This document shows positions 9,514 to 63,596 of a stretch of DNA of 64,000 nucleotides, piece by piece (within the stretch, counting starts at the first letter, position 1; each line of letters opens with the position of its first letter). The stretch comes from Isoptericola variabilis 225. GTDB taxonomy: Bacteria > Actinomycetota > Actinomycetes > Actinomycetales > Cellulomonadaceae. The notes below the pieces were generated by a model that searched no databases, was not told where the DNA came from, and saw nothing but the letters and a program-made list of their open reading frames with translations. Location of the stretch: NCBI RefSeq assembly GCF_000215105.1, contig NC_015588.1, positions 806,001 through 870,000 of the forward strand, written 5' to 3'. The translations under genes and the position numbers were made by a program.

Positions 9514-9622
9514 GAGGTAGCGCAGGATCCCGCGAAGTAGCGCTGGATCTCGCGAAGTAGCGCGGCTTTCCAGCGCTACCTCGGCGGATCGAGCGCTACC
9601 TCGGCGGATCGAGCGCTACCTC
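9514..9622. repeat. Inverted array of 20-bp GAGGTAGCGC repeats (copy 1)
   Basis: Three forward units start at 9514, 9534 and 9554 (GAGGTAGCGC or GAAGTAGCGC plus about 10 variable bases). Three reversed units (GCGCTACCTC) follow at 9573, 9593 and 9613. The period is 20 bp. The RNA can fold into a long interrupted hairpin, so the array could end transcription from both sides. It lies between the convergent purH and reductase genes and includes the reductase stop codon. A second array with the same plan lies at 63398. Confidence 0.85.
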
Positions 9623-10926
9623 GCAGGGTCGGCGACGGCGTCGCGGAGGCGCGTCGCGGGGTCGGTGGCGCGCTCGAGGTCCAGGCGCAGCGGCTCGCCG
9701 CGGTTCATGAGCCGGCGCACGGCACCGACCTCGCGCGGCGAGTCGACGAGCAGCACGGCGCGGACCGTGGCGACGCCGTCGGCCGCGCCCGTGCCGTGCT
9801 CGCCCCGCTCGTCCCCGTCGAGGTAGAACGCCGCCCACGGGCCCGGGCCGCCCGGCTCGCCGCGCCAGGCGACGGGCCCGGTGCCCGGGAGCCCGAGCAG
9901 CGCCAGGTCGTGCCCGAGCTGGCGCGAGAACACGTACGGCGCGTGCCCCGGCCCGGGCTCGAGGCCGAGCATCGCGCGGGCGGTGACGTCGGGGTCGTGG
10001 AGCGCGGCCGACCAGTGCCCTCCGGGGACCGTGCCGAAGACGGGGTGCGCGCGCGAGGCGACGTCGCCCACGGCCCAGACGCGCGGGTGCCCGGGCACCG
10101 CGCCGTCGGGACCCGCGGGCACCGTGCCGCGCGCGTCGAGCGGGACGCTGCCCGCGAGCCAGGCGGACGCCGGCCGTGCGCCGACCGCGGCGAGCACGAG
10201 GTCGGCCGCGAGCGAGCGCCCGTCCGCGAGCCGCACGACGTCGTCGCGCACCTCGGCGACGGGCGCGCCGGTGAGCAGCCGGACGCCGGCGTCGGCGTAC
10301 CAGCCGGCCAGGTGCGCGCCGACGCCGGCCCCGAGCTGGCGCTCGAGCGGCGCCGAGGCGGCCTCGACGACCGTGACGTCGGCCCCGGCGCCGGCCGCGA
10401 CGCCGGCGACCTCCGCGCCGACCCAGCCCGCGCCCACGACCACGAGCCGCAGACCGGGGCGCAGGGCGGCGCGCAGCCGTGCGGCGTCGTCCGCCGTGTG
10501 CAGGACGACCGCGTCGTCCCAGCCCGTGGGCTTCACGGCCTCGGCACCGACGGCGAGCACGACGGCGTCCGCGCGCAGCTCGCCGCCCGAGGCGGTGGTC
10601 ACGACGACGGCGTCCGGCGTCGACGCGAGCGCGGTCGCGGGCTCGGCGAGCCGGAGGTCGTCGGCGAGCGACGCGACGTCGACGCCGATGTCGTCGCTGA
10701 GCCACACGGGCTCGGGACGCGTGAGCAGCTCCTTCGACAGCGGCGGACGGTCGTAGGGCGGCACGCCCTCGGCGCCGAGCAGCGTGAGGCGGCCGTCGAA
10801 CCCGTGCGCGCGCAGCGCGGCGACGGTCTGCGCCCCGGCCAGGCCGGCGCCGACGACCACGACGGAGTCCGGGACCGGGCGCGCCGCGGGGCGGGCGGGG
10901 GAGGTGTCGTGCTGCACGACGCTCAC
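9616..10926 (-). CDS. FAD-dependent NAD(P)H:ferredoxin/rubredoxin reductase-like protein
   Basis: A 436-residue flavoprotein of the pyridine nucleotide-disulfide oxidoreductase class I type. SVVVVGAGLAGAQTVAAL near the N-terminus binds FAD; PPYDRPPLSKELL is diagnostic of the BphA4/putidaredoxin reductase group; LVVVGAGWVGAEVAGVA near residue 155 binds NAD(P)H; VWAVGDVAS is the second FAD motif. The C-terminal reductase domain follows. It probably passes electrons to a ferredoxin for a cytochrome P450 or dioxygenase, but no such partner lies nearby. Start GTG at 10926. Its last codon, Arg, and stop TAG come from the repeat array. Confidence 0.85.
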   Translation of the reverse strand: MSVVQHDTSPARPAARPVPDSVVVVGAGLAGAQTVAALRAHGFDGRLTLLGAEGVPPYDRPPLSKELLTRPEPVWLSDDIGVDVASLADDLRLAEPATALASTPDAVVVTTASGGELRADAVVLAVGAEAVKPTGWDDAVVLHTADDAARLRAALRPGLRLVVVGAGWVGAEVAGVAAGAGADVTVVEAASAPLERQLGAGVGAHLAGWYADAGVRLLTGAPVAEVRDDVVRLADGRSLAADLVLAAVGARPASAWLAGSVPLDARGTVPAGPDGAVPGHPRVWAVGDVASRAHPVFGTVPGGHWSAALHDPDVTARAMLGLEPGPGHAPYVFSRQLGHDLALLGLPGTGPVAWRGEPGGPGPWAAFYLDGDERGEHGTGAADGVATVRAVLLVDSPREVGAVRRLMNRGEPLRLDLERATDPATRLRDAVADPAR

Positions 10927-10960
10927 GCTAACCCGTGCCGGGCGCGTGCCCGGCCGACGG

Positions 10961-10977
10961 TAGGCTCGGCTGCCGTG
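10961..10977 (+). promoter_or_regulatory. Leaderless promoter of the DUF3017 gene
   Basis: TAGGCT at 10961-10966 is followed after 8 bases by the GTG start at 10975, the spacing of an actinobacterial leaderless gene. Confidence 0.5.
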
Positions 10978-11337
10978 GATCCCCGTGCCCCGCAGCCCGA
11001 CCCGGCGTCGCGGCCCGTGACGCCCCCGCGGCCCGCGTGGGACGCGGTCGTGCCCGCGCCGCCCGCCGAACGCCCGGCACGGCCCAGCCCGGTCCGCGCG
11101 ATCCTGCTGGCGACGGCCGGGATCCTCCTCGCGGTCGTGCTCGGCGTGACCCTGAGCGCCCGGGCAGGCGCGCTCGCCGTCGCGGCGACGCTCGCCGTCG
11201 CCGGGACGTGGCGCGCGGTCGCGCCCGACGGGCCTCCCGGACTGGTCGTGCGCAGCCGCGGCTTCGACGTCCTGCTCTGCTGGGGCTCGGCCGCGATGAT
11301 CACGTTCCTCGCCTTCACCGCGCCGGGCGTCGGCTGA
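10975..11337 (+). CDS. DUF3017 family small membrane protein
   Basis: A 120-residue protein with a Pro/Ala-rich cytoplasmic tail of about 40 residues and three hydrophobic helices (around RAILLATAGILLAVVLGVTL, AGALAVAATLAVAGTW, and FDVLLCWGSAAMITFLAFTA). Size, topology and the RSRGFDVL motif match DUF3017, an actinobacterial family often encoded near folD. Here folD is 50 kb away in the window. Function unknown. GTG 10975 is chosen because a -10 element lies 8 bases upstream and the residues before it are not family-like. Confidence 0.75.
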   Translation: MDPRAPQPDPASRPVTPPRPAWDAVVPAPPAERPARPSPVRAILLATAGILLAVVLGVTLSARAGALAVAATLAVAGTWRAVAPDGPPGLVVRSRGFDVLLCWGSAAMITFLAFTAPGVG

Positions 11338-11395
11338 CGCCCGTCCCGGGGCATCGCTCGCGGGGCGCGGCCCCGCTGCCGGGCGCGTCGGAGCG

Positions 11396-12193
11396 TCAGT
11401 CGCGCGTCGTGAAGCCCTCGAGCGTCCCGGTCACGGTGCCCTGCATGGGCTCGACGACGCACAGGACGGTCCGGTCGCCCCACGCCCAGCTCTCCTCGGT
11501 CGGCGTCGCGGGCCACACGTAGAGGCTCGACTCGTCGTACGGCTCGCCGACGAACGCGGTGAACTCCTCGACGCAGTAGTCGTACGAGCGCTCGTCGACG
11601 ACCGCCGTGCCCGGCCACTCGCCGTCGGGCAGCTCGGTCACGGCGAAGACCTCCGAGACGTGCTCCTCCTCGCACGGCACCACGGGCACCCCGTACGACT
11701 CCTCGGTCAGGCTGGACCCGTCGAAGCAGTCGCCGACCTGCACGTCGAGCCAGTCGGTCTCCACGCCGCCGGCACCCGGCTCCGGGTCGAGGCCGAGCTC
11801 CTCCTCGAGGGCGTCGAGCCCCCACGCGTCGGCGGTCCACGAGCCGCCGCCGAGCACGTTCACGAGCAGCACGGACCACACCGCGACGGTGAGCACCAGC
11901 GAGACCGCCGCGGCCACGACCGCCGCGACGCCGAACCCGCGGGCGGCCCGCCCCTCGCGCGCGGCCGTGACGACGTCGCCGGCGCCCAGCGCTCGCGCCG
12001 ACCGTTGCGACGCCAGGTACGCCGGGATCGCGAGCGGCCAGAACAGGACGATCGCGGCGATCACCCACCCGGTCCCGTCCGACGGCGTCGATGGCGCGGT
12101 CGCGTACGGGAGCGGACCCGGCTCGGGGCCGAACGGCGCGCGGGGCGCGGCGTCCCAGCCGGCGTACGGGTCGGAGGGCGGGGGGAGCGTCAT
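11396..12193 (-). CDS. Septum-formation (PF13845-like) domain membrane protein
   Basis: A 265-residue protein. Residues 1-40 are Pro-rich. Two membrane segments follow (GWVIAAIVLFWPLAIPAYLA, and one around VVAAAVSLVLTVAVWSVLLV), with the DUF4190/CD225-like pattern between them. The exported C-terminal domain contains DVQVGDCFDG, VPVVPCEEEHVSEVF and CVEEF, with four cysteines in the pattern of the actinobacterial septum-formation domain. It is probably membrane-anchored with an outer globular domain held by disulfides. Its role in septation is inherited from the family name and is not proven. It stands alone downstream of the aquaporin terminator. Confidence 0.75.
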   Translation of the reverse strand: MTLPPPSDPYAGWDAAPRAPFGPEPGPLPYATAPSTPSDGTGWVIAAIVLFWPLAIPAYLASQRSARALGAGDVVTAAREGRAARGFGVAAVVAAAVSLVLTVAVWSVLLVNVLGGGSWTADAWGLDALEEELGLDPEPGAGGVETDWLDVQVGDCFDGSSLTEESYGVPVVPCEEEHVSEVFAVTELPDGEWPGTAVVDERSYDYCVEEFTAFVGEPYDESSLYVWPATPTEESWAWGDRTVLCVVEPMQGTVTGTLEGFTTRD

Positions 12194-12261
12194 CGGGGGG
12201 CCTTCGGTCGGGCGTGCAGCAGCCGGCCATGTCTACCAGAGAGCGGGCCGCCGCGGAACGC

Positions 12262-12299
12262 CACGAGGGCCGGCACCCCTGCGGGTGCCGGCCCTCGTG
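12262..12299 (-). terminator. Strong hairpin downstream of the aquaporin gene
   Basis: A perfect 17-bp stem, CACGAGGGCCGGCACCC against its complement, with a 4-base loop lies 15 bases after the aquaporin stop codon and just upstream of the next minus-strand gene. It very likely separates the two transcripts. Confidence 0.85.
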
Positions 12300-12313
12300 A
12301 TCGTCCGTGCCGC

Positions 12314-14531
<2,218 letters not shown>

Positions 14532-14598
14532 CGGTCCCGCGCGACCTGCGGAAAAGCCCTGGGGGAGCGTCGGAGGCGGGTCGTAGTGTCGGTCGACG

Positions 14599-15943
14599 AT
14601 GATCGACACCACGACCCGCGCTCCTGCGGCGGCTCCCGCGCCCGCGCCCGACGACCCGGCCCGGCGCCTCGACTGGCGGCGGCTGCGCAGCCCGGTCGCC
14701 GTCGTCGCGCTGGTCGCGCTCGGCGCTCGGCACGGTCGTCGCCGGCCGGCTCGCCCAGGATCCGACGACGGCGGGCGTCGCGCTGCTCGCGCTGTGCGTG
14801 GTCGACGACGACACCCACGCGGTCGGCGCGCTCGTCCGGCGGCAGCCGTGGGGCATGGGCCGCACGGTGATCGGCTCGGTGCCGCTGTGGGTGGTCGCGG
14901 GACTCACGTGGTGGCCCGCCTGGGTCCTGTTCCCCGTCCTCGGCACCGCGACGGTGCTGCTCGTGCGGCCGCTGCTCGGCGAGATCGCGCGGCGCAAGGT
15001 CGTCGAGGAGCGCGCCTGGACCGACGACGCCGCCGCGTTCGAGGAGGCCGTCGCCGCCCGCGACGACCTGCGCACGAGCCTCGGGCAGGCGTTCGCGGTG
15101 CGCCGCCTGGCCGAGCTGTCGGCGGCGGTCCACCGGACGCTCGACCGCGTCCTCGTCGTCGAGACGCGCATGACGCGCCGCGCGGGCCTGCTGCTGCACG
15201 CGCTGCTGGGCGGCGTCGCCGTCGCGGGCGTGGCGCTCGCGGCAGGCGGCGACCTGTCGGTGGCAGGCCTCGTCACGCTCTTCCTGGTGACGGCCACCTT
15301 CGTCGGTCAGATCGACCAGCTGGCCCGGCACCTGCCCGACCTCCAGGAGGGCGTGGGCGCGGCGATTCGCATCCGCCAGCTCCTCGAGGCGGAGCCGGAG
15401 CCCGCGGGCGGCCGACCGGTCCCCGACGGGCCGCTCGACATCGAACTGCGCGACCTGCACTTCGCGTACGCCGGGGGCACCTTCGCCCTGCAGGGCGTCT
15501 CGCTGCACGTGCCGGCCGGCCAGACGGTCGCGCTCGTGGGCCGCACGGGGTCGGGCAAGTCGACGCTCGCCTCGCTCCTGTCGCGCGCGGACGTGCCGCG
15601 CTCCGACGTCGAGGCCGCCGTCGCCGAGCTCCGGCTGCAGGAGTGGGTCGACGGGCTGCCTGACGGCCTCGACACGCTCCTCGGCCCGGGCGGGACCTCG
15701 CTGTCCGCGGGCGAGGAGCAGCTCGTCGCGTTCGCACGCCTGCTCGTGCGCGACGTCCATGTCGTCGTGCTCGACGAGGCCACCGCGCGCATGGACCCGC
15801 ACACCGAGGCGCGCGTCGGCGCGACGTCCAAGCGTGCCGCGCTCGCGCGTGCCGACCGGGTGGTCGTGCTGGACGACGGCGAGGTGGCCGACGTCGGCGC
15901 CTGGCGGGACCTCTCGGGGCGGTGGGGGCACCTCGCGGGCTGA
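14599..15943 (+). pseudogene. Decayed ABC exporter (permease-ATPase fusion)
   Basis: The gene starts well ([20 protein letters not shown] from ATG 14599) but shifts frame near 14722-14733; the continuation, [21 protein letters not shown], is in another frame. The rest holds part of the membrane domain and an ATPase domain with a normal Walker A ([10 protein letters not shown]), but the segment from Walker A to the signature is mostly missing, including the Q-loop. The signature reads LSAGEEQ in place of LSGGQ. Walker B ([12 protein letters not shown]) is present. About 440 codons remain, against about 580 for the family. I consider it non-functional. Confidence 0.75.
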
Positions 15944-15951
15944 CGTCGGGT

Positions 15952-15981
15952 CTTGCTGCACGTTTCTGCAAGCATTACAGT
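15952..15981 (+). promoter_or_regulatory. Promoter and MalR-like operator of the amylase-pullulanase gene
   Basis: TTGCTG (15953-15958) and TACAGT (15976-15981) make a -35/-10 pair with 17 bases between. Covering this spacer is the inverted repeat CTTGC...GCAAG (15952-15972), which resembles the TTGCAG-type sites of LacI-family maltose/starch regulators in actinobacteria. Repression by a MalR-like protein encoded elsewhere is likely. Confidence 0.6.
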
Positions 15982-16011
15982 CGCGTGCGGCACATCGACG
16001 AAGGAGTCCAC

Positions 16012-19000
16012 ATGACGCGCACCCCGCGCCGCGCCGTCGCGGCGCTCGCTGCCTCCTCGCTCCTCGCCCTCACCGGTCTCACCGCCGTCGCCGCCACGGT
16101 CGCCGTGGCAGGCCCGGCCGCCGCCGAGGACCGCACCGCGGCCCTGGTCGGCGACCTGCAGACCGAGCTGGGCTGCGGGTCCGACTGGGACCCGGCCTGC
16201 GAGGCGACCGAGCTGCAGCCTGCCGGCGACGGCACCTACACCGCCGAGTTCGACATCCCGGCCGGGTCGTACCAGTACAAGGTGGCACTCGACGACACGT
16301 GGGACGAGTCGTACGGGCGCGAGGGCACCGACGCCGACGCGCCGCTCGTGCTCGGCGGCGACGCGCGCGTGCGCGTGACGTACGACGACACGACGCACCG
16401 CATCGCCCTGACGCCGGTCGGCCTCGCGGGGGAGTACGACGAGGCGACCGACGCCGCGCTCGTCGTGCCGCCCGTGCGCCAGCCCGGGTCGGACGAGCGG
16501 TTCTACTTCGTCATGACCGACCGGTTCGCCAACGGCGACCCGTCGAACGACACCGGCGGGATCGCCGGCGACCGGCTCGACCACGGCTTCGACCCGACGA
16601 ACAAGGGCTTCTACTCCGGCGGCGACATCGCCGGGCTGCGCGAGAGGCTCGACTACATCGAGGGGCTGGGCACGACGGCGATCTGGCTCACGCCGTCGTT
16701 CCTCAACCGGCCCGTCCAGGGCACGGGCGACCAGGCGAGCGCCGGGTACCACGGGTACTGGATCACCGACTTCACGCGGATCGACCCGCACCTCGGCACG
16801 AACGAGGAGCTCGGCGCGCTCATCGACGAGGCGCACGCCCGCGGCATCAAGGTCTACTTCGACATCATCACCAACCACACGGCCGACGTCATCGACTACG
16901 CCGAGGGCAGGTACGAGTACGTCGACCAGGCGACCTCGCCCTACCGCGACGCTGCGGGCAACGTGTTCAACCCCGCGGACCACGCCGGTACGGACGACTT
17001 CCCCGAGCTCGACCCCGCGAAGTCGTTCCCCTACACGCCGCAGGTCTCGCCCGAGGACGCCGACCTCAAGGTCCCGGCCTGGCTCAACGACGTCACGCTC
17101 TACCACAACCGCGGCAACTCGACGTGGACCGGCGAGTCGGTCACCTACGGCGACTTCGACGGGCTCGACGACCTCATGACCGAGCACCCGACGGTCGTGC
17201 AGGGCTTCGTCGACGTCTACAAGGCCTGGATCGACCTCGGCATCGACGGCTTCCGGATCGACACGGTCAAGCACGTCAACCCGGAGTTCTGGGAGACGTG
17301 GTCGGCCGAGGTCATGGACTACGCGCGCTCGATCGAGAAGGACGACTTCTTCATGTTCGGCGAGGTGTACGACGCCGACGCCGCCAAGACCGCGCCCTAC
17401 GTCCGCGAGACCGAGATGAGCTCGGTGCTCGACTTCGCGTTCCAGGCGGCGGCCACGAGCTACGCGAGCGGCAACAGCGCCCGCGGCCTGGCCAACCTCT
17501 TCGCGAGCGACGACCGCTACACCACGCCCCACTCGTCCGCCTCCGCGCTGCCGACCTTCCTCGGCAACCACGACATGGGTCGCGTCGGTTACCTGCTGCA
17601 GAACACCGACGACCCGCTCGCCCGGGACGAGCTCGCCCACGAGCTGATGTACCTCACGCGCGGCCAGCCCGTCGTCTACTACGGCGACGAGCAGGGCTTC
17701 GCGGGCACGGGCGGCGACAAGGACGCGCGCCAGACGCTCTTCGCGACGCAGGTCGCCGAGTACGCCGACCAGGATCTCGTCACCGGCGAGCGTGCCGGCA
17801 GCGTCGACCGCTACGACACCGACGCGCCGCTCTACCGGCACCTCGCCGAGCTGGCCGCGCTCCGCGACGCCCACCCCGCGCTCGCCACGGGCGCGCAGGT
17901 TGAGCGGTACGCGGAGAACGGCGCGGGCGTCTACGCCTTCAGCCGCGTGCACCGCGACGAGAAGGTCGAGCACCTCGTGGCGCTCAACAACGCGTCGGCG
18001 GCTCGCGGTGCCACCTTCACCACGCTGACCCCCGGCGCGACGTACACCGCGCTGTACGGCGAGCTCGCCGGCGGCGGCACGTCCGTCACGGCCGGCGCCG
18101 ACGGCACCGTGACCCTCGAGGTCCCGGCGACCTCCGCCGTCGTCCTCGTCGCGGACCGGATGGTCGGTGCCGACACGACGGGCGAGATCACGGTCACCGT
18201 GCCGGGCGCCGGCGCCGCCATGACCGGCACCGCGCCCGTCGCGGCGACCGTCGACGACGCGTGGGCCGAGACGTCGTTCGCATGGCGCGAGGTCGGCACG
18301 ACCGAGTGGCAGCACCTCGGCACCGCCGAGGACACGACGCCGCGCGTCTTCCACGACGTCGACCTGCCCGAGGGCACGCTCGTCGAGTACCGCGCCGTGA
18401 CCGTGGACGCCGACGGCGACCGTGCCGCCGCCTCGACGTTCGCGTCCGTGGGCGTCGACGTCTCGGGCGAGGTCGGCGACGCCGAGCCCGAGCCCGAGAT
18501 CGACATGGTCACCGTGCCCGGCAACCACAACTCCGAGATGGGCTGCGCCGGCGACTGGACGCCCGACTGCGAGGGCGCGCGCCTCACCGAGCGGCCCGAC
18601 GGCGTCTGGCAGGGCACGTTCGACCTGCCCGCGGGCGACTACGAGTACAAGGTCGCGGTCAACGGCTCGTGGGCCGTGAACTACGGCGTCGGCGGCGTGC
18701 GCGACGGCGCCAACGCGCGGTACCACCACGACGGCGGGCCGGTCACGTTCTACTGGGACCCGGTCAGCCACGACTTCTCGTCGACCGCGCAGGGCCCGAT
18801 CGTGACGATGCCCGGCTCCTACCAGGACCAGGTCGGCTGCCCGGGCACCTGGCAGCCCGACTGCCTCGCCACGTGGGCCAAGGACCCCGACGGCGACGGC
18901 GTCTACACCTGGTCGACCGACCGGCTCGCCGCGGGCGCCTACGAGGTCAAGGTCGCGCACGGGATGAGCTGGGCGGAGAACTACGGGGTGGGCGGTGCCC

Positions 19001-21852: not shown

Positions 21853-21864
21853 CCCCTCGAGAAA

Positions 21865-21943
21865 ACCGCTGTGGGCATGATTTCTGGCCCGTTCTGTCCG
21901 GATCATCCGGACAGAACGGGCCAGAAATCATGCCCACAGCGGT
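21865..21943. repeat. 79-bp perfect palindrome
   Basis: Two 39-base arms that are exact reverse complements flank a single C at 21904. They begin ACCGCTGTGGGCATGATTTC and end with its complement. The element lies 12 bases after the amylase-pullulanase stop and before the ArsR gene. It may act as a terminator, but its length and perfection exceed what termination needs. Its A+T content is slightly higher than the surroundings. Confidence 0.9.
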
Positions 21944-21971
21944 CTCTTGCCATGGTGAGGCGTAAAACGCT

Positions 21972-21995
21972 ACTTACGGTAAGTGGGAACTTACC
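21972..21995 (+). promoter_or_regulatory. Likely ArsR autoregulatory operator
   Basis: ACTTAC-G-GTAAGT (21972-21984) is a perfect 6-bp inverted repeat, and a further AACTTACC follows at 21988. They overlap the presumed promoter and the GTG start at 21983. ArsR proteins often bind such palindromes at their own start. Confidence 0.45.
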
Positions 21996-22644: not shown

Positions 22645-22771
22645 GTGCCTTCGGAAACCGAACGTATGCGGCGGCACTTCCGCGGCCGTCCGGCGGTCGT
22701 GGCAGCCGCAGGATGGCGCGGATGTGTCCATCTCGTGACCAGATCGTTATGGCGGAGTTCGCGCCGCGGCT

Positions 22772-49946: not shown

Positions 49947-49989
49947 GAATCACGTATCCCGTGCCCAGCACCACTCCGGAGTCTCGACG

Positions 49990-53069: not shown

Positions 53070-53102
53070 CCCGCCGCACGACCTCCCCGCAAGACGGACG
53101 TC

Positions 53103-53771: not shown

Positions 53772-53779
53772 GGGTCCTC

Positions 53780-55147: not shown

Positions 55148-55148
55148 G

Positions 55149-56009
55149 TCAGCCCTTGGTCCCGGTCAGCGCGACCGACTCGATGATCTGCCGCTGGAAG
55201 ATGAGGAACACCACGAGGATCGGCAGCAGCGCCACCGTCGAGGCGCCCATGATGAGCGGGTAGTCGCGCTGCGTCGCGTACTGGACGTTCATGTTCGCGA
55301 TGACGACCTGCAGCGTCTGCCGCTCGGGCGTGTTCAGGTAGAGGATCGGGGCCAGGTAGTCGTTCCAGACCACCATGAACCACAGGATGAACTGCGCGGC
55401 GACCGCAGGCCGGATGATCGGCAGGATCATCTTCCAGAAGATCTGGAAGTACGAGGCGCCGTCGATCTTCGCGGCCTCGACGAGCGAGTTCGGGACGTTC
55501 TCGAGGTACTGCCGCAGGAAGAAGATCATGACGATGTTGCCGAAGATCGCCGGGACGATCAGGGGCAGCAGCGTGTCGACCCAGCCGAACCGCGAGAACA
55601 TGACGAACTGCGGGATCATCAGCGTCGGGAACGGGATCATGATGCCCGTGAGCAGGCCGATGAAGATCGTGTTGCGGAACGGCAGGCGCAGCTTGGCCAG
55701 CGAGAACGCGGCCAGCGAGCAGGTGAACGTCCCGATGATCGTCACGGTGAGCGAGACGATGAGGCTGTTCTTGAAGCCCGAGAGGATGAGCGAGTCCGCC
55801 CACATCCGCACATACGTGTCCCACTGCGGGATCTCGGGGACCCACACGGGCGGGAGGGCGAAGACCTCGAGCTTGGTCTTCAGCGACGTGGAGAACATCC
55901 ACAGCAGCGGGGCGATCATGACGATCGCGCCGGCGGCGAGGATGATCCAGACGACGGTGTCGGTGATGCGCGAGCTCGTCTTGCGGCTCAGCGCCGGAGT
56001 GCGTGCCAT
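55149..56009 (-). CDS. CUT1 sugar ABC importer permease (MalG-like), second locus
   Basis: A 286-residue permease with six helices. The first is VVWIILAAGAIVMIAPLLWM; the EAA loop is LVEAAKIDGASYFQIFWKMI; the C-terminus is FQRQIIESVALTGTKG. It pairs with the MalF-like subunit 15 bases upstream. ATG 56009 is preceded by GAGGAAGAACC. Confidence 0.94.
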   Translation of the reverse strand: MARTPALSRKTSSRITDTVVWIILAAGAIVMIAPLLWMFSTSLKTKLEVFALPPVWVPEIPQWDTYVRMWADSLILSGFKNSLIVSLTVTIIGTFTCSLAAFSLAKLRLPFRNTIFIGLLTGIMIPFPTLMIPQFVMFSRFGWVDTLLPLIVPAIFGNIVMIFFLRQYLENVPNSLVEAAKIDGASYFQIFWKMILPIIRPAVAAQFILWFMVVWNDYLAPILYLNTPERQTLQVVIANMNVQYATQRDYPLIMGASTVALLPILVVFLIFQRQIIESVALTGTKG

Positions 56010-56024
56010 GGTTCTTCCTCCGCC

Positions 56025-57005
56025 TCAGTCGATGACGAAGCTGTTGCGCCGGTTCAGGCGGAACTGGATGAGCGTGATGATGAGGATGAGGATCCCCAGG
56101 ACGATCGCCATCGCGGTGGCGTACCCCATCTGCTGGTAGCGGAAGGCCTGGCGCCAGATGTGCCACACGGCCGAGGCGGTCGAGTACTCCGGGCCGCCAG
56201 TCGGCGTCATGATGTTGATCTCGGTGAAGATCTGCGCGCCGGCGATGATGTTGGTGACCACGAGGAAGAACGTCACGGGCCGGACCATGGGGAGCGTGAT
56301 CGCGCGGAACCGCTGCCAGGCGTTCGCGCCGTCGAGCTCGGCCGCCTCGTAGAGCGAGCGCGGAACGGACTGGATCGCCGCCAGGTACAGCAGCATCGAG
56401 TACCCGAGGCCCTTCCAGACGGCCATGATGATGATGGCCGGCTTCGACCAGGTGGTGCTCGCGAGCCAGTTCGGGCCGTCGATGCCGAGGTACGCCAGGA
56501 ACTGGTTCACGAGGCCGAAGTCGCCGTTGTAGGCCCACTGCCACAGGATCGCGATCGCGGCGAGCGACGAGATCACGGGGATGTAGTAGATGGTGCGGAA
56601 CGCCGTCAGCCCGTACAGCTTGCGGTTCATCGCGAGCGCCAGCGCGAGCGAGAGCGCCAGGCCGATCGGGATGCCGATCATGTAGAAGAACGTGTTGAAC
56701 AGCGAGATGCGGAAGTACTCGTCGCCCAGCAGGTTCACGTAGTTCTGCAGGCCGACGAACCGCATCGGCCCCAGGCCGTTCCACTGCGTGAGCGACGCGT
56801 AGGCGGCGAAGAGCACGGGGTAGAGCGTGAAGGCGAGGTAGCCGATCACGGGGGCGGCGACGAAGATCAGCGCCCACTTCTGCTCCTGGCGGTGGAGCCG
56901 CGAGGTCCCGCCGCCGGGCGGTGCCTTCCGAGGGGGTTCGGTCACCGAGCCGCGCAGCCCGGTCGTCGCGGTCGAGCCGGACGTCGTCGCGGAGGACGTC
57001 GTCAT
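56025..57005 (-). CDS. CUT1 sugar ABC importer permease (MalF-like), second locus
   Basis: A 326-residue permease with a Thr/Ser-rich cytoplasmic N-terminus of about 45 residues and six helices. GYLAFTLYPVLFAAYASLTQ, the EAA loop LYEAAELDGANAWQRFRAIT and TPTGGPEYSTASAVWHIW are typical. ATG 57005 follows AAGGAGTCAGCG. The neighbouring binding protein supplies substrate; the ATPase must come from elsewhere in the genome. Confidence 0.94.
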   Translation of the reverse strand: MTTSSATTSGSTATTGLRGSVTEPPRKAPPGGGTSRLHRQEQKWALIFVAAPVIGYLAFTLYPVLFAAYASLTQWNGLGPMRFVGLQNYVNLLGDEYFRISLFNTFFYMIGIPIGLALSLALALAMNRKLYGLTAFRTIYYIPVISSLAAIAILWQWAYNGDFGLVNQFLAYLGIDGPNWLASTTWSKPAIIIMAVWKGLGYSMLLYLAAIQSVPRSLYEAAELDGANAWQRFRAITLPMVRPVTFFLVVTNIIAGAQIFTEINIMTPTGGPEYSTASAVWHIWRQAFRYQQMGYATAMAIVLGILILIITLIQFRLNRRNSFVID

Positions 57006-57038
57006 CGCTGACTCCTTCGTCGAGAGGGTCGGTCGGGC

Positions 57039-57072
57039 GGGTGCGGCCGCCGGGGCTCCGGCGGCCGCACCC
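57039..57072 (-). terminator. GC hairpin between binding-protein and permease genes, second locus
   Basis: A 15-bp stem GGGTGCGGCCGCCGG and its complement with loop GGCT lies 10 bases after the binding-protein stop. As in the first locus it probably lowers permease relative to binding-protein expression. Confidence 0.7.
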
Positions 57073-57082
57073 GGTGGGACGG

Positions 57083-58441
57083 TCAGCCGTTCGCGCCGGC
57101 GTTGGCGGCCGCGGCCTGCTCGGCCTGGGCGTTCGACTCGTCGAGCAGCTGCTGCATGCGCGGCTGGACCTCGGCGAGGTACTCGGCGGCCGGCTTCTGG
57201 CCGTCGACGACGGGCTGGATGTTGGTCCACAGCTCGTCGTACCAGGCGGCGCCGTACGTCATCGCGGCGGGCATCGGGCGGCCGTAGTCCTGGATGATGT
57301 CGAGGAACTCCTGACGGTTCGCCGGCTCGGCGTCGGGCGCCTGCGCCCACTCCTCGGCCACGTCGATGAGGTTCGGGACCTGGATGTTGGCGTTCACCAG
57401 GGTCTCCTGCGCGGTCGGGTCGGCCGACAGGTAGGTCACGAGCTTGACGGCCTCCTCGGGCATGTCCGTCGTCGTCGAGACGCCGATGCCGAGCGAGCCG
57501 ATCCACGCGGCGGTCTCACCGGTCTTGCCGACGGGCCAGGGCATGAGGTCGTACTCGAAGTCGAGCTCGTTGTAGACGCTCATGTCCCACGGGCCGACCG
57601 GGAAGAACCCGATCTCGCCGGCCATGAAGCGCTGGTAGGTGTCGAGCGTCTGCGCCTGCTCGGGGTTCGGCGTGACCTTGTGCTCGGTCGTCAGGTCGGT
57701 GAAGAACTGCAGCGCCTCGGCGAACTCGGGCGTGTCGACCGTGACCTGCGTGCGGTCCTCGTTGGTCCAGTCGCCGCCGTTCGACCACACGAACGACTGC
57801 AGGTTCCACTGGACGTTGAGGCCGGTGCCCCACTGGTCGACCTCGCCGTCGCCGTCGGTGTCCTTGGTGAGGGCCTTGAGGATCTCGAGCCACTCGTCCC
57901 AGGTCAGCGGCTGGTCCGGGTCGGGCAGCGGGATCCCGGCCTCCTCGAGCATCGTCTTGTTGTAGCCCATGGCGAACGGGCCGACGTCCTTCGGCAGGCC
58001 GTAGAGGCGGCCGTCGGGCGTGCCCTGGAGCGTGCCGTCGTAGCGGTAGGAGTCGACGCCGTACTCCCACAGGTTGTCGAGGTCCACGCCCTGCTCGGCG
58101 ACCTGGTCCGTGATGTCCATGAGGATCCCGGAGGTCACGTACGACTGGAGGTTGGCCTGCTCGATGTAGAACACGTCGGGCACGTTGTTGCCGGCGATCG
58201 CGGCCTGCAGCTTCGTCGCGTACTGGTCCGCGTCGGTGACGATGACCTCGACCTCGACGCCGGTCTCCTCGGTGAAGCGGTCGATGGCCTCCTGGTAGGC
58301 GGCCTTCTCGTCCTCGCCGCCGCGGAACATGAAGGTGAGGCCCTCCGACGAGCCTCCTCCGCCACCGGAGCTGCACGCGGCGGTGCTGGCGACGACCAGC
58401 CCGGCAACGACGCCGGCGGTCAGGCGTGACTTCCTCATCAC
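57083..58441 (-). CDS. Sugar-binding lipoprotein of the second CUT1 importer
   Basis: A 452-residue family 1 solute-binding protein. The lipobox is VASTAACSS with Cys about 23, followed by a Gly/Ser linker. LTFMFRGGEDEKAAYQEAID begins the mature fold; VPDVFYIEQANLQSY, GYNKTMLEEAGIPLPDP, FMAGEIGFFPVGPWD and SLGIGVSTTTDMPEEAVKL follow. The last 20 residues are Ala/Gln-rich. First gene of the operon importer-GH43-DUF624. Its promoter region contains a TACATCGATGAA operator at 58503. Confidence 0.93.
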   Translation of the reverse strand: MMRKSRLTAGVVAGLVVASTAACSSGGGGGSSEGLTFMFRGGEDEKAAYQEAIDRFTEETGVEVEVIVTDADQYATKLQAAIAGNNVPDVFYIEQANLQSYVTSGILMDITDQVAEQGVDLDNLWEYGVDSYRYDGTLQGTPDGRLYGLPKDVGPFAMGYNKTMLEEAGIPLPDPDQPLTWDEWLEILKALTKDTDGDGEVDQWGTGLNVQWNLQSFVWSNGGDWTNEDRTQVTVDTPEFAEALQFFTDLTTEHKVTPNPEQAQTLDTYQRFMAGEIGFFPVGPWDMSVYNELDFEYDLMPWPVGKTGETAAWIGSLGIGVSTTTDMPEEAVKLVTYLSADPTAQETLVNANIQVPNLIDVAEEWAQAPDAEPANRQEFLDIIQDYGRPMPAAMTYGAAWYDELWTNIQPVVDGQKPAAEYLAEVQPRMQQLLDESNAQAEQAAAANAGANG

Positions 58442-58502
58442 GGGGTCCTCTCGGTCAATCCGGGTCCGCGATCGAGGGTTCCTGTCACCCTCGACTCGGC
58501 TT

Positions 58503-58514
58503 TACATCGATGAA
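58503..58514. promoter_or_regulatory. LacI-type operator TACATCGATGAA
   Basis: A close variant of the 49931 site with the same CGATG core, 62 bases upstream of the minus-strand binding-protein gene in the 227-base divergent region. Confidence 0.6.
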
Positions 58515-58582
58515 GAATCACCGACGGCCCACACGCTCGCACGGTCGGCGGCCGATGGTCAAGTGTCGTGGGTCACGAACCT

Positions 58583-58594
58583 ACAACGATGAAG
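58583..58594. promoter_or_regulatory. LacI-type operator TACAACGATGAA
   Basis: Second site in the divergent region, differing from the 49931 site at one position. It lies 80 bases from the 58503 site and 56 bases from the 58639 site. Confidence 0.6.
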
Positions 58595-58638
58595 AGGCGG
58601 CTTGACGCGGTGGCGGCCGGCCATGCACCATCGGCTCC

Positions 58639-58650
58639 TACAACGATGTA
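58639..58650. promoter_or_regulatory. LacI-type operator TACAACGATGTA before GH27 gene
   Basis: Identical to the 49931 site. It ends 18 bases before the GH27 ATG and includes TACAGG as a possible -10 element at its right end, so repression would be direct. Confidence 0.68.
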
Positions 58651-58668
58651 CAGGCGGGAGAACGAGCG

Positions 58669-60036
58669 ATGGAGCGCAGCGGGACGGCCGCGCCGCAGGT
58701 GGCACCGCCCATGGGCTGGAACTCCTGGGACAGCTACGGCACCACGGTGACCGAGGACGAGGTCCTGGCCAACGCCCGGTTCATGGCCGAGCGCATGGCC
58801 GACGTCGGCTGGGACACCGTCGTCGTCGACATCCAGTGGTACGAGCCGACCGCCCGCGCCGGCGGGTACAACCAGGACGCCCCGGTGCAGTTCGACGAGC
58901 GAGGCTTCCTCGAGCCGGTGATCGCGCGGTTCCCGTCGGCCGACGGCGGCGCGGGGTTCGCGCCGCTCGCCGCCGCCGTGCACGACCTCGGGCTGCGCTT
59001 CGGCATCCACCTCATGCGCGGCATCGCGCGGCGCGCCGTCGAGGCGGACCTGCCCGTGCCGGGCACCGAGCACACCACGGGCGAGATCGCCGACCGCGGG
59101 AGCACGTGCCCGTGGAACCCCGACTGCTACGGGCTGCGCCACGACCACCCGGGCGCCCAGGCCTGGCTCGACGCGATGATCGAGCACGTCGTCGGCTGGG
59201 GCGTCGACTTCCTCAAGGTCGACGACATGCTCGCCCCGTACCACGCGGACGCGATCGAGGCGCTCTCGCTCGCGGTCCGACGCGCGGAGCTGCGGCACGG
59301 GCGGCGCGTCACCGTCTCGCTGTCGCCCGGCACCGAGCTCTCGCTCGCGCACCTCGAGCACCTGCGCGAGCACGCCGACATGTGGCGGGTCTCGGACGAC
59401 CTGTGGGACCGCTGGGAGGACGTCGAGGCGCAGCTCACGCGCCTGGCGCGGTGGGCGCCGCACTCCGGTCCCGCCGGCTGGGCCGACGCCGACATGCTGC
59501 CGCTCGGCCGGATCGGCCTGCGCGCCGAGCGCGGCGAGCCGCGCGACAGCCTCCTGACCGCCGACGAGCGCCGGACGATGCTCTCGCTGTGGTGCCTCGC
59601 GCGCTCGCCGCTGTTCGTCGGCGGGGACCTGCCCACGTCGGACGCGGCGACGATCGCCGACCTGACCAACCCGGCCGTGCTCGACGTCGCGCGCGGCTCC
59701 GGTGGCGGGCGCGAGCTGCTGCGCGAGGGCGACCTCGTCGTCTGGGGCGCGCGTGGCGGTGGTGAGCGCGGCGGCGGCGAGCTCGCCGGCGCGCGCTGGG
59801 CCGGGGTGTTCAACACCGGGCGCGAGGCGCGCCGCGTGCGCGTCCCCGCGGCGTCGGCGGACCTGCCCGGCGCGCCCGAGGCGCTCACCGACGTGTGGAC
59901 GGGCGAGCGCGTCCGGCTCGCGCCCGCGAGCGCCGCGACCGCCGGCGACACCGTGATCGACGTCGACGTGCCCGCGCACGGCGTGCGGCTCCTGCGGCTC
60001 GACGCGGACCCGGCCACGGACGAGGCGTGCGCATGA
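58669..60036 (+). CDS. GH27-like glycosidase (alpha-galactosidase / beta-L-arabinopyranosidase type)
   Basis: A 455-residue cytoplasmic enzyme. PPMGWNSWDSYG at the N-terminus, VDFLKVDDM with nucleophile Asp about 185, WRVSDDLWDRW with acid/base Asp about 244, and GWADADMLPLGRIGL place it in GH27. The C-terminal beta domain holds a His/Gly/Arg-rich loop. The usual substrate-binding DDGW/DDCW motif is replaced by VVVDIQWYEP, so the sugar specificity probably differs from classical alpha-galactosidases; beta-L-arabinopyranosidase activity is known in GH27 and fits the context. It shares operators with the importer operon. GGGAG precedes ATG 58669. Confidence 0.85.
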   Translation: MERSGTAAPQVAPPMGWNSWDSYGTTVTEDEVLANARFMAERMADVGWDTVVVDIQWYEPTARAGGYNQDAPVQFDERGFLEPVIARFPSADGGAGFAPLAAAVHDLGLRFGIHLMRGIARRAVEADLPVPGTEHTTGEIADRGSTCPWNPDCYGLRHDHPGAQAWLDAMIEHVVGWGVDFLKVDDMLAPYHADAIEALSLAVRRAELRHGRRVTVSLSPGTELSLAHLEHLREHADMWRVSDDLWDRWEDVEAQLTRLARWAPHSGPAGWADADMLPLGRIGLRAERGEPRDSLLTADERRTMLSLWCLARSPLFVGGDLPTSDAATIADLTNPAVLDVARGSGGGRELLREGDLVVWGARGGGERGGGELAGARWAGVFNTGREARRVRVPAASADLPGAPEALTDVWTGERVRLAPASAATAGDTVIDVDVPAHGVRLLRLDADPATDEACA

Positions 60037-61076
60037 GGCCGGCCCTGGTCGCGGCGACGGCCGGCGTGGTGGCCGTCGTCGTCGCGGGCGGCGTGACGCT
60101 CGGCGTGACCCGTCCCTGGGAGCCTGCGGCCGAGCCGCTCGAGCTCGCGGGCGACCTCGCGACGCACGACCCGGCGCTCGTCGTCGGCGACGAGGGCGAG
60201 CCCTGGTTCGTCTACTCGACCGGCGACGTGCGCGTCGGCTTCGGGGCGCCGCAGATCCGCCGGTCCGACGACGGCGGGCGGACGTGGGAGCGGGTCGGCA
60301 CCGCGTGGGACCGCGCGGGAGACCCCGCGTGGGTGCGCGAGGAGATCGACGGCGTCACGAACTACTGGGCTCCCGAGCTCTACGAGAACGACGGCACCTG
60401 GTACCTGTACTACTCGGCGTCGACGTTCGGGTCGAACGACTCGGCGATCGGGCTCGCGACGGCGACGACGCTCGACCCGGACGACCCGGACTTCGGGTGG
60501 ACCGACCAGGGCATGGTCATCCGCTCGCACGCCGGCCAGGACCACTGGAACGCGATCGACCCCGGCATCGTCGAGGACGCCGCCGGGAACCCGTGGATGT
60601 TCTTCGGCTCGTTCTGGGGCGGGATCCAGGTGGTGCCGCTCGAGTGGCCGAGCGGGAAGGTCGCCGGCGACGCGGAGCCGGTGCGCGTCGCCTCGCGTGC
60701 CGGGGTGCCCGAGAACGCGATCGAGGCCCCGTACGTCGTCGAGCGCGACGGCTGGTACTACCTGTTCGTCTCGTGGGACAAGTGCTGCTCGGGCGTCGAC
60801 TCGACGTACCGGATCGTCGTCGGGCGCTCGCGCGACGTCACCGGGCCGTTCCTCGACGCCGAGGGCCGGGACATGGCGCTCGGCGGCGGCACCGAGGTGC
60901 TCGCGACCGACGGGTCGATGATCGGTCCCGGCGGGCAGTCGCTGTCGAAGGGCCACCTCGGCTACCACTTCTACGACGACGACGACGGCGGGATGTTCCG
61001 GCTGGCGATCCAGGAGCTCGCGTGGGAGGACGGCTGGCCGGTGGCCACGACGGACGTGCCCGGCACGGGGGAGTAG
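60033..61076 (+). CDS. Exported GH43 arabinanase (GH43_5-like)
   Basis: A 347-residue enzyme with an N-terminal signal or anchor (ALVAATAGVVAVVVAGGVTL) and no lipobox Cys, so it is exported or membrane-attached. General base Asp about 46 is in LATHDPALV, the second Asp in NAIDPGIVED, and the acid Glu in NAIEAPYVVE. NYWAPELYENDGTWYLYYSA, FGSFWGGIQVVPL and SWDKCCSGVDSTYRIVVGRS are hallmarks of alpha-1,5-arabinanases; the CC pair is characteristic. It overlaps the GH27 gene by ATGA. It should make the oligosaccharides that the importers take up. Confidence 0.9.
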   Translation: MRPALVAATAGVVAVVVAGGVTLGVTRPWEPAAEPLELAGDLATHDPALVVGDEGEPWFVYSTGDVRVGFGAPQIRRSDDGGRTWERVGTAWDRAGDPAWVREEIDGVTNYWAPELYENDGTWYLYYSASTFGSNDSAIGLATATTLDPDDPDFGWTDQGMVIRSHAGQDHWNAIDPGIVEDAAGNPWMFFGSFWGGIQVVPLEWPSGKVAGDAEPVRVASRAGVPENAIEAPYVVERDGWYYLFVSWDKCCSGVDSTYRIVVGRSRDVTGPFLDAEGRDMALGGGTEVLATDGSMIGPGGQSLSKGHLGYHFYDDDDGGMFRLAIQELAWEDGWPVATTDVPGTGE

Positions 61077-61084
61077 CCATCCGA

Positions 61085-61090
61085 TAGGAT
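61085..61090 (+). promoter_or_regulatory. glyA promoter -10 element
   Basis: TAGGAT fits TANNNT and lies about 7 bases before the ZTP aptamer begins, just as for purH. Confidence 0.55.
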
Positions 61091-61096
61091 CGCGAC

Positions 61097-61178
61097 GTCG
61101 CGACTGGCGTACAGGTGGATCACCACCGGGGAGCGACGCGCTGTGCTGACGACGGGTCGTTCGCCTGGGCCCGCTCGC
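61097..61178 (+). ncRNA. ZTP (pfl-motif) riboswitch of glyA-folD
   Basis: The same core as at 7763: CGCGACTGGCG, GGTGGA paired with ACCACC, GGGGAGCG, then a linker and TCGCCTGGGC. It controls one-carbon donor genes in response to ZMP/ZTP in known systems. The aptamer ends about 60 bases before ATG 61240. No obvious T-run terminator follows, so control may be translational or act through a GC-rich hairpin. Confidence 0.88.
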
Positions 61179-61239
61179 TCGATCCGACCCTGTCGAACCC
61201 TGTCCGACATGCCGCCGTCCGACGCAGCAGGAGAACGCC

Positions 61240-62523
61240 ATGAGCACGCCCGACCCCACCCTCAACGCGCCCCTCGCCGAGCTCGACCCCGAGATCGCCG
61301 CCGTCCTCGAGGGCGAGCTGGCCCGCCAGCGCGACACCCTCGAGATGATCGCGTCCGAGAACTTCGTGCCCCGCGCCGTGCTCCAGGCCCAGGGCTCCGT
61401 CCTGACGAACAAGTACGCCGAGGGCTACCCGGGCCGCCGCTACTACGGCGGCTGCGAGCAGGTCGACATCGCGGAGAACCTCGCGATCGCCCGCGCCAAG
61501 GACCTCTTCGGCGCCGACCACGTCAACGTCCAGCCGCACTCGGGCGCGCAGGCCAACGCGGCCGTGCTGCACGCGCTCATCAACGCGGGCGACAAGATCC
61601 TCGGCCTCGAGCTGGCCCACGGCGGCCACCTCACGCACGGCATGAAGATCAACTTCTCCGGCAAGCTGTACGACGTCGCCGCGTACGGCGTCGACCCGGA
61701 GACGCACCGCATCGAGATGGACGAGGTGCGCAAGAAGGCGCTCGAGCACCGCCCCGACGTCATCATCGCCGGCTGGTCCGCGTACCCGCGCCAGCTCGAC
61801 TTCGCCGCGTTCCGCGAGGTCGCCGACGAGGTGGGCGCCAAGCTGTGGGTCGACATGGCGCACTTCGCCGGCCTCGTGGCCGCGGGGCTGCACCCGTCGC
61901 CGGTGCCGCACGCCGACGTCGTCTCCTCGACCGTGCACAAGACGATCGGCGGCCCCCGCTCGGGTTTCATCCTGAGCAAGGAGGAGTACGCCAAGAAGAT
62001 CGACTCCGCCGTGTTCCCGGGCCAACAGGGTGGCCCGCTCATGCACGTGATCGCCGCGAAGGCGGTCGCGTTCAAGGTCGCCGCGACGGACGGGTTCAAG
62101 GACCGTCAGGAGCGCACGGTGCGCGGCGCGAAGATCATCGCCGAGCGCCTCTCGCAGCCCGACGTCGCGGGCGCGGGCGTCTCCGTCCTCACGGGCGGCA
62201 CCGACGTCCACCTCGTGCTCGTCGACCTGCGGAACTCCGCGCTCGACGGCCAGCAGGCCGAGGACCTCCTGCACGACGCCGGCATCACGGTCAACCGCAA
62301 CGCCGTCCCGTTCGACCCGCGCCCGCCGCGCGTCACCTCGGGTCTGCGCATCGGCACGCCGGCGCTCGCGACGCGTGGGTTCGGCGACGCCGAGTTCACC
62401 GAGGTCGCCGACATCATCGCGACCGCGCTGCGCGACGGGGCGTCCGCCGACGTCGAGGGCCTGTCGGCGCGCGTCGCGAAGCTCACGGCCGACTTCCCGC
62501 TCTACCCGGGGCTCGCCCAGTGA
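61240..62523 (+). CDS. glyA: Serine hydroxymethyltransferase
   Basis: Converts serine and tetrahydrofolate to glycine and 5,10-methylene-tetrahydrofolate. The 427 residues contain [54 protein letters not shown], the metal-like [12 protein letters not shown] and the PLP-binding Lys about 234 in [13 protein letters not shown]. Length is normal. GCAGGAGA precedes ATG 61240. It overlaps folD by GTGA. Confidence 0.98.
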
Positions 62524-63404
62524 CGGCGCAGAAGCTCGACGGCAAGGCGACCGCCGCGGCGATCAAGGACGAGCTGCGCACCCGGGTCGCGGCGCTGCGC
62601 GAGCGCGGCGTCGTGCCCGGGCTCGGCACGCTGCTCGTCGGGGACGACCCGGGCTCGCAGTGGTACGTCGCGGGCAAGCACCGCGACTGCGCCGAGGTCG
62701 GCATCGAGTCGATCCGCGAGGACCTGCCCGCCGACGCGACGCAGGAGGAGATCGAGGCCGCGGTGCGCCGGCTCAACGAGGACCCCGCCTGCACGGGGTT
62801 CATCGTCCAGCTGCCGCTGCCCAAGGGCATCGACACCAACCGCGTGCTCGAGCTCGTCGACCCGGCCAAGGACGCCGACGGCCTGCACCCGACCAACCTC
62901 GGCCGGCTCGTGCTGCGCGTGGGCGACGAGATCGACTCGCCGCTGCCCTGCACGCCGCGCGGCATCATCGAGCTCGTCGAGCGGCACGGGGTGTCGCTCA
63001 AGGGCAAGGAGGTCGTGGTGCTCGGCCGCGGCGTGACCGTGGGGCGGCCCATCGGGCTGCTGCTCACGCGCCGCGCGGTCAACGCGACGGTGACGCTCAC
63101 CCACACGGGGACGCAGGACCTCGCGGGGCTCGTGAAGCGGGCCGACGTCGTCGTCGCGGCCGCGGGCGTCAAGGGGCTCGTGACGGCCGACATGGTCAAG
63201 CCCGGCGCGGTGCTCGTCGACGTCGGCGTCTCGCGCGAGACCGACCCGGAGACGGGCAAGTCGCGCGTCGTCGGCGACATCCACCCCGACGCGCTCGAGG
63301 TGGCCGGCTGGTACTCGCCGAACCCCGGCGGCGTCGGGCCCATGACCCGCGCCATGCTGCTGGCCAACGTCGTCGAGACGGCCGAGCGCCTCTCGGCGAA
63401 GTAG
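62520..63404 (+). CDS. folD: Methylene-tetrahydrofolate dehydrogenase/cyclohydrolase
   Basis: Oxidises 5,10-methylene-tetrahydrofolate and opens it to 10-formyl-tetrahydrofolate, the donor used by PurN and PurH. The 294 residues show [20 protein letters not shown], with the catalytic Lys in that segment; [33 protein letters not shown]; and the NADP loop [16 protein letters not shown]. It ends ERLSAK. Its last codon and TAG stop belong to the repeat array that follows. GTG 62520 is coupled to glyA. Confidence 0.97.
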
Positions 63405-63596
63405 CGCACGATCCGCCGAGGTAGCGCACGATCCGCCGAGGTAGCGCGTTCTCGCTCGAGGTAGCGCACGGGGAGGGCGCGCGCTCGAATGAATCGGTCG
63501 CTGCGCTCCCTCTGCTCTCGCGCGCACCCTCCCCGTGCGCTACCTCGCGGGCCGGGGCGCTACCTCGGCAGATGGTGCGCTCCCTCGCGGGCGGGA
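63398..63596. repeat. Inverted array of 20-bp GAGGTAGCGC repeats (copy 2)
   Basis: Four forward units start at 63398, 63418, 63438 and 63458. Three reversed units (GCGCTACCTC, the last GCGCTCCCTC) start at 63537, 63557 and 63577. The central stem extends into ACGGGGAGGG and its complement and holds a loop of about 40 bases (63490-63520). The 20-bp period matches the array after purH. Confidence 0.85.

Follow-up and report, generated by a model that had tools for sequence, protein, structure and literature searches.

Introduction

Short sites that recur between bacterial genes are known from several systems, and we compare them here with tandem arrays of a 20-bp unit that lie at two gene ends in a 64,000-nucleotide stretch of the chromosome of the soil bacterium Isoptericola variabilis 225 (hereafter the window; bases 806001-870000 of the single 3,307,740-base contig of genome G000) and recur throughout that genome. 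The L5-type stoperators of cluster A mycobacteriophages are described as short asymmetric sites in short intergenic spaces that are oriented with transcription, bound by a protein and proposed to halt elongation, and reversing a site abolishes its effect (PMC9283540). The Isoptericola arrays likewise consist of short asymmetric sites in short intergenic spaces. Stoperators differ in being phage 13-mers, with more than 20 over the phage genome, whereas ours form rows in the chromosome with a pitch of 20 bp, many of them with two arms that face each other; their polarity is unproven, and no repressor is known to bind them. By analogy, stoperators may be the best model of a possible mode of action.

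The DNA uptake sequences (DUS) of Neisseriaceae are reported to form dialects that follow the species tree and share a short common core; nearly all versions contain a stop codon in one of their frames, and inverted pairs lie at terminators (PMC3630211). The array dialects follow phylogeny too, in a two-gene tree with some low supports, but they differ from DUS in their few single copies, their strict tandem pitch and their concentration in 23 array junctions in 1.14 Mb. The TAACTGA direct repeats of Beggiatoaceae, of which 169 sets are reported in one draft genome, are also intergenic direct repeats of a short conserved motif; a 20-bp pitch, dialects and facing arms go unmentioned in the abstract (PMC4679880). 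For binding only, an analogy is offered by BldC, which is described as binding DNA head to tail on direct repeats, a model of a small protein lining up on such repeats (PMC5859096).

The arrays resemble repetitive extragenic palindromes (REP) and bacterial interspersed mosaic elements (BIMEs) in their many intergenic copies, inverted arrangement and position at gene 3′ ends. They differ from the REP/BIME elements that accompany REP-associated tyrosine transposases (RAYT) in lacking a Y1 transposase, in a unit that is an asymmetric direct repeat with a free spacer rather than a palindrome, and in dialects that change between clades. BldC sites are AT-rich and lie at promoters. Clustered regularly interspaced short palindromic repeats (CRISPR) measure about 25-40 bp, with spacers of similar length, and lie beside cas genes. 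We rejected a CRISPR array as a candidate, since the present unit has 20 bp with 9-bp spacers and the genes beside the two arrays of the window, to which the search for cas was confined, are not cas genes. Literature searches for the strings GAGGTAGCGC and CGAGGTAG gave nothing on repeats among the matches listed, and topic searches, with subscription journals mostly missing, gave no description of these arrays by title or start of abstract among the matches listed.

Arrays across the I. variabilis genome

The initial annotation had reported a conserved 10-mer alternating with a variable 10-mer at two loci and suggested, among other readings, a genome-wide intergenic element. Exact pairs of the core GARGTAGCGC at a 20-bp pitch occur 188 times in forward and 178 times in reverse orientation in the whole genome (0 + 0 for a backwards-pattern control). 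We systematically sampled 54 stretches of 20 kb at regular steps, which together with the window make 1.144 Mb or about a third of the genome, and called 1059 genes with a simple codon-usage caller, whose start positions are approximate. This sample contained 39 blocks of at least two boxes at the exact pitch of 20 (21 forward, 18 reverse). Arrays occupied 23 of 1004 gene junctions, 21 of them beside a gene 3′ end, which corresponds to about 66 array junctions per genome if the rest resembles the sample. By junction type, 12 of the 169 convergent ones had arrays, as did 9 of the 669 tandem and 2 of the 166 divergent ones. Exact 10-base cores numbered 137 in the sample, against 5.7 expected under a third-order and 34.6 under a fifth-order Markov model, both trained on the same DNA including the arrays; 122 of the cores belonged to blocks, 15 were inside genes, and the remaining intergenic DNA had none. 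The genome-wide, intergenic character suggested earlier was thus borne out.

Among the 141 units that have a successor, the unit consists of an 11-bp box, CGA(G/A/C)GTAGCGC, and nine variable bases, the last two mostly G or C. The base preceding the next box is C in all 141 units, which extends the conserved part from 10 to 11 bp, and box position 3 varies (G, A and C in 105, 21 and 15 units). The other box positions are nearly invariant, and spacer positions 11-17 hold 0.1-0.7 bits. The distance between neighbouring boxes on the same strand, where it does not exceed 60 bp, is exactly 20 bp in 135 of 143 cases; the rest measure 21 (2), 13 (1), 34 (2), 40 (2) and 42 bp (1). A box-blind scan for at least three copies of any 9-mer at a pitch of 15 to 25 returned 33 periodic runs in 553 intergenic stretches, 29 with a pitch of 20 and single runs of pitch 15, 16, 18 and 24. 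The box was absent from one of the 29 and from all four runs of other pitch. Plain counting of 10-mers in intergenic DNA returned composition only and was abandoned.

Spacers inside one block share 6.47 of 10 bases, compared with 4.41 for random pairs from the genome and 4.45 predicted from position frequencies, and some arrays, such as those of loci L128 and L142, alternate two unit patterns. Because spacers within a block are more alike than random pairs, growth of the arms through local duplication is supported by the sequences.

With a slightly looser motif, 44 blocks were counted in G000, two of them inside called genes, and 31 of the 42 blocks outside genes lay downstream of a gene end with the sense strand bearing TAG. 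Since 22 of these 31 sit between convergent genes, they carry little information on polarity. At 13 of the 31 ends, the gene uses the TAG in the outermost box as its stop codon, and TAG stops are found beside sense arrays in 11 of 25 cases compared with 135 of 990 elsewhere (p = 3e-4). A box supplies the stop at 31 of 68 ends in loci of three relatives with the same box, Isoptericola sp. RH59_bin.012 (G006), RH59_bin.036 (G015) and I. halalbus CFH 91151 (G014), loci that were chosen for three exact units and count some orthologous sites twice (at least 10 locus pairs). In these loci and G000 together, the stop-supplying box was the first 44 times, the second 5 times and the third once, a count that omits the blocks of L191 and L214, which are situated wholly within called genes. 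Among relatives with other boxes, the box supplies the stop at 4 of 13 ends in G012, where the box bears TGA in sense, at none of 4 in G009, which has three more blocks between divergent genes, and at 2 of 4 in G016, G017, G007 and G011.

Box dialects and shared sites among relatives

A scan of contigs for three exact units found 67 stretches, all from Isoptericola, although records of the window's own species may have been excluded. Among 221 genomes of the family, the G000 box pair was present in six, namely Isoptericola G000, G006, G015, G014 and G007 and, as a single match, one genome of another genus; sister species thus share the arrays. Neither of the two outcomes that the initial annotation had named as refuting it, a genome with no copies beyond these two or a lack of conservation in sister strains, was observed. 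Other Isoptericola clades carry other boxes: CGAGTCAGCGC, CGAGGTAGGCAA, CGAGGTAGTRC and CGAGATAG. At pitch 20, CGAGTCAGCGC forms 73+97 pairs in G012, 91+65 in G009 and one pair in G014, and none in the other 15 genomes. Pairs of CGAGATAG number 47+40 in G004, 22+26 in G005 and 38+35 in G010; G003 has 5+6, compared with 0+7 for its control. In the inspected stretches of G004 and G010 their pitch is 22. CGAGGTAG occurs with different tails in G007, G011, G016 and G017, and G001 and G002 showed no dialect among the patterns searched. In a PurH and NadC tree, dialects group by clade, with some supports low: 100 for G000/G006/G015/G014, 100 for G009 and G012, 95 for G007 and G011, 97 for G016, G017 and G001, 66 for the CGAGATAG group, and 37-59 for several deeper nodes.

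Elsewhere in the family, other genera have elements whose arms each contain two boxes at pitch 19, as do a few genomes from other families; of eight two-armed ones viewed in context, five lay between convergent, one between tandem and two between divergent genes. Seven loci from other genera (L251, L253, L254, L255, L256, L258 and L294) have a compact element of fixed size, with two CGAGRTAG boxes per arm at pitch 19 and a constant gap of 14 bases between the arms. Most single matches of an order-wide search were chance according to its control, and G008 has two unrelated periodic runs of pitch 18 and 23.

Different dialects occupy some of the same gene ends. At the 3′ end of nadB, arrays of at least two boxes, in at least five dialects, are present in G000, G015, G017, G007, G011, G004, G005, G003, G009 and G012, with a single box in G010 and G002 and no box array in G008 and G013. 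The arrays of G000, G015, G017, G007, G011, G004 and G003 contain no reverse box and read in the nadB sense; as they are single-armed, no hairpin is needed at this end. G004 and G010 have arrays of their own dialect at the purH end, the same place as array A of the window (Table 1). In testable stretches, a G000 array was found at 8 of 14 gene ends bearing another dialect, compared with 33 of 1009 ends. Counted by junction, cross-dialect sharing amounts to 5 of 11 comparisons against the background of 23/1004 (p = 3e-6), and by distinct G000 site to 4 of 9 (p = 3e-5); without array A, which had been selected by the original finding, 3 of 8 sites remain (p = 6e-4). Sharing within a dialect reached 11 of 20 ends, a fairer figure than 49 of 68, which includes G000 loci fetched for having arrays.

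In 11 orthologous array pairs, 154 of 172 boxes read GAVGTAGCGC, and the orthologous spacers share 3.49 of 9 bases compared with 3.27 of 9 for non-orthologous arms. Judged from these sequences, it is difficult to account by copying alone for boxes that stay constant at dozens of loci while the spacers beside them are unrelated. Copying of units explains the likeness within blocks, but not the retention of boxes with loss of spacers, which points to constraint by a reader of the box; clade dialects together with shared sites suggest that such a factor acts in trans.

Separately, most Isoptericola showing both genes have nadC inverted with respect to nadB, the exceptions being G003, G005, G010 and G013. 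Inversion by facing arms was considered, as nadC lies between a forward and a reverse array in G000, and rejected: nadC is equally inverted in species without the upstream array, and the arrangement does not show causation.

Arrays A and B in the window

Both arrays in the window keep the exact 20-bp spacing within arms that had been reported for them (Table 1). The successive steps of array A are 20, 20, 19, 20 and 20, with boxes 9534 and 9554 being GAAG variants; in array B, where box 63398 is a GAAG variant, every step within an arm is 20. The step from arm to arm departs from 20, at 19 bp in A and 79 bp in B. The last box of array B ends at 63586, and the end at 63596 given previously included 10 bases of flank. 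With at most one mismatch, the box matches the window 24 times, compared with 8.8 (sd 3.0) in shuffles, none of 100 of which reached 24; 13 of the matches are the boxes of A and B, one falls within the central loop of array B (63503), and 10 are scattered. The stop codon of the oxidoreductase gene (9616-9618) is the TAG of the outermost reverse box of array A, and the TAG stop of folD (63402-63404) lies inside the first box of array B.

Table 1. Features at and beside the two box arrays, in window coordinates
Feature	Position	Strand	Evidence	Remarks
purH (AICAR transformylase/IMP cyclohydrolase)	7878..9512	+	Pfam AICARFT_IMPCHas 6.5e-117, gene caller	start codon uncertain; 3′ end bears array A
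Array A, forward arm	9514..9563	+		3 boxes at 9514, 9534, 9554, pitch 20; box 1 begins 1 bp past purH stop
Array A, reverse arm	9573..9622	-		3 boxes at 9573, 9593, 9613, pitch 20
FAD/NAD-linked oxidoreductase gene	9616..10926	-	Pfam Pyr_redox_2 9.5e-46, gene caller	convergent with purH
folD	62520..63404	+	Pfam THF_DHG_CYH_C 1.4e-55, gene caller	start codon uncertain
Array B, forward arm	63398..63467	+		4 boxes at 63398, 63418, 63438, 63458, pitch 20
Array B, central hairpin	63468..63536	.		terminal 10-base segments are exact inverted copies of each other
Array B, reverse arm	63537..63586	-		3 boxes at 63537, 63557, 63577, pitch 20; outermost is GAGGGAGCGC
Gene 3′ of array B, PF06983 family	63671..64000	+	Pfam, gene caller	continues beyond window edge

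The inner hairpin sequence of array B was found again at unrelated loci, in L142 near 8408-8476 of the same genome and in L203 near 4699-4766 of a sister species; two central hairpins are each found at more than one locus. Two further families of recurrent 3′-end hairpins were seen in the purH-folD region of relatives, one with the outer motif ACGAGCGTGC and a variable inner stem in G008, G009, G012, G014 and G017 (e.g., L144, L165, L146, L148 and L163) and one carrying GTTGTGGGC. At curated score, Rfam matched only two ZMP/ZTP riboswitches in the window, at 7758-7844 and 61090-61177, and nothing over the arrays. The riboswitches lie directly 5′ of purH and of a glyA-like gene preceding folD, and both riboswitch-headed gene groups also terminate in box arrays.

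Arrays A and B fold far below shuffled sequences (z -8.7 to -10.6). Spacers pair with one another only weakly better than spacers taken from other loci do (mean z -0.89, negative in 10 of 14 elements), and L090 and L142 fold worse than with foreign spacers; against shuffled spacers, a null that ignores positional composition, the mean z was -1.88. Variants at box position 3 are uncorrelated between arms (32 of 55 the same, 32.9 expected), which gives no sign of compensatory RNA pairing. A scan of array A alone found no intrinsic terminator, that is, no GC-rich hairpin followed by a U tract, at 9400-9700. Of the idea of a nested hairpin family grown by duplication, the duplication and the capacity to form hairpins hold, and the specific pairing of spacers is weak.

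Discussion

Among the three readings offered by the initial annotation, a tandem binding site in our view fits the sequences best. We put at roughly 0.37 the probability that the arrays are tandem sites for a putative co-evolving factor that would act in trans to mark gene ends, probably by blocking the path of RNA polymerase. A sequence-specific factor, most simply a DNA-binding protein, would line up head to tail with one subunit per 20 bp, or about two helical turns. Rows of it at gene 3′ ends, usually on two facing arms, would keep RNA polymerase from running on past the gene, as a roadblock or an insulator, and arms would lengthen or shorten through local duplication. When the specificity of the factor shifts in a lineage, boxes would be rewritten to the new dialect, at least partly at occupied sites. 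A protein that would read DNA rather than RNA is favoured by the precise pitch, which is close to two helical turns, and by the single-armed arrays at nadB.

Several observations weigh against the binding-site reading. No factor turned up, whole gene sets not having been searched for one. Hairpin-like geometry is common, as 16 of the 23 array junctions have arms in both orientations, separated by a short loop or a longer centre (17 with the degenerate arm of L097), and spacers of three elements (L108, L131 and L135) pair clearly better than foreign ones (z -3.3 to -4.3). Only one arm exceeds the threshold at seven junctions (L097, L134 at 9014, both of L137, both of L139, and L140), with degenerate reverse boxes close to the arrays of L097 and L140. 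The arms face each other in 15 of the 16 two-armed junctions and are reversed in order in L092. Polarity is equivocal: away from convergent junctions, blocks in sense and in antisense to the adjacent gene end are equally frequent (9 each), because two-armed elements contribute one of each, and two blocks have no flanking gene end. At the nadB end, the array faces nadC too in most species, and G014 has two boxes in the opposite sense there. In G000 (L137:9763-9872), and likewise in G015 (L192:4676-4765), the space between the divergent genes lysS and nadC contains a forward array, 5′ of nadC. Most gene ends do without an array (157 of 169 convergent junctions), and single antisense boxes in genes are not depleted (29 observed, 17.7 expected). 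No box array was found in 280 kb each of G008 and G013, where the chance of finding none at the G000 rate is about 0.0005 and 0.001, so that the function would be dispensable or done otherwise in these species. Part of the box uniformity may also reflect common descent.

A rival reading has transcribed arms that fold into a long interrupted stem, ending transcription or protecting the mRNA 3′ end, with arms arising by slippage and the box as a remnant of a founder hairpin. The folding of A and B, the 3′-end position, the central palindromes, the frequency of two-armed junctions and the elements that fold better with their own spacers all speak for such RNA hairpins. We nevertheless consider them a serious rival but less likely than the binding-site reading, given the missing U tract at A, the single-armed nadB arrays of several species, the lack of covariation at box position 3 and the poor folding of L090 and L142; a hairpin alone, moreover, requires neither the same 11 bases at dozens of loci, nor a fixed 20-bp pitch, nor one dialect per clade. 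The duplication signal within blocks, the two-unit alternation, the presence of arrays in some species only and the grouping of dialects by clade are also what would be expected of self-spreading or mutation-driven repeats without host function, copied between gene ends, amplified by slippage and tolerated where genes stay unbroken. Recent copying would carry spacers along, yet random spacers are no more alike than position frequencies predict and orthologous ones barely more. The occupation of the same gene ends by different dialects also argues against it, and the Y1 transposase (PF01797) is absent from all 18 Isoptericola genomes (5 of 14 control genomes were positive), other transposases not having been searched for; we regard such repeats as a serious but less likely rival and rejected spread by RAYT.

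Still less probable, in our judgement, are topological or nucleoid elements in the manner of BIMEs, at which gyrase or an architectural protein would absorb supercoils between convergent genes. BIME-2 is reported to be cut by gyrase in Escherichia coli (PMC6379681), and arrays are enriched at convergent junctions (12/169 compared with 11/835 others). Between 1.2 and 2.08 Mb, none of 45 convergent junctions has an array compared with 12 of 124 elsewhere (p = 0.037), a weak regional effect whose borders were set after the data were seen, and the GC skew of G000 gave no clear origin or terminus by which to place the region. A conserved enzyme such as gyrase, however, should need no clade-specific box. 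A species watermark for DNA uptake has precedents in DUS for its clade dialects with a short common core, stop in one frame and inverted pairs at terminators, and antisense boxes reach 2.6 times the density in G000 genes that they have in genes of nine species with another or no dialect (29 vs 11 at equal lengths). We hold it to be very improbable, since a watermark should occur as scattered single copies, whereas the cores here are concentrated in arrays and missing from other intergenic DNA. Two other candidates were rejected. Viral contigs held no tandem boxes of the G000 dialect or of CGAGTCAGCGC, and their single match to the CGAGATAGAG pattern, in AT-rich DNA, looks unrelated, which speaks against a phage origin. 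A translation fail-safe with stops in three frames would be served by pitches of 19, 20 and 22, but a pitch of 21 is found in another genus as well as in G004 at the end of nadB, and the reverse arms would go unexplained.

To our knowledge, the ending of transcripts without U-tract terminators and the separation of convergent genes in high-GC actinobacteria are poorly understood. Tentatively, and with somewhat less assurance than for binding at gene ends as such, the arrays may belong to a chromosomal punctuation code in which a fast-evolving DNA-binding protein and boxes spaced at 20 bp co-evolve, the ends of selected genes are marked, often with the gene's stop in the first box, and whole genomes switch dialect while keeping at least some sites. 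The element family unites features known separately from the dialects of uptake sequences, from stoperators and from BIMEs. That a box is nearly invariant within a genome, differs between clades and yet reappears at certain shared gene ends strongly suggests a recognition system that is so far undescribed.

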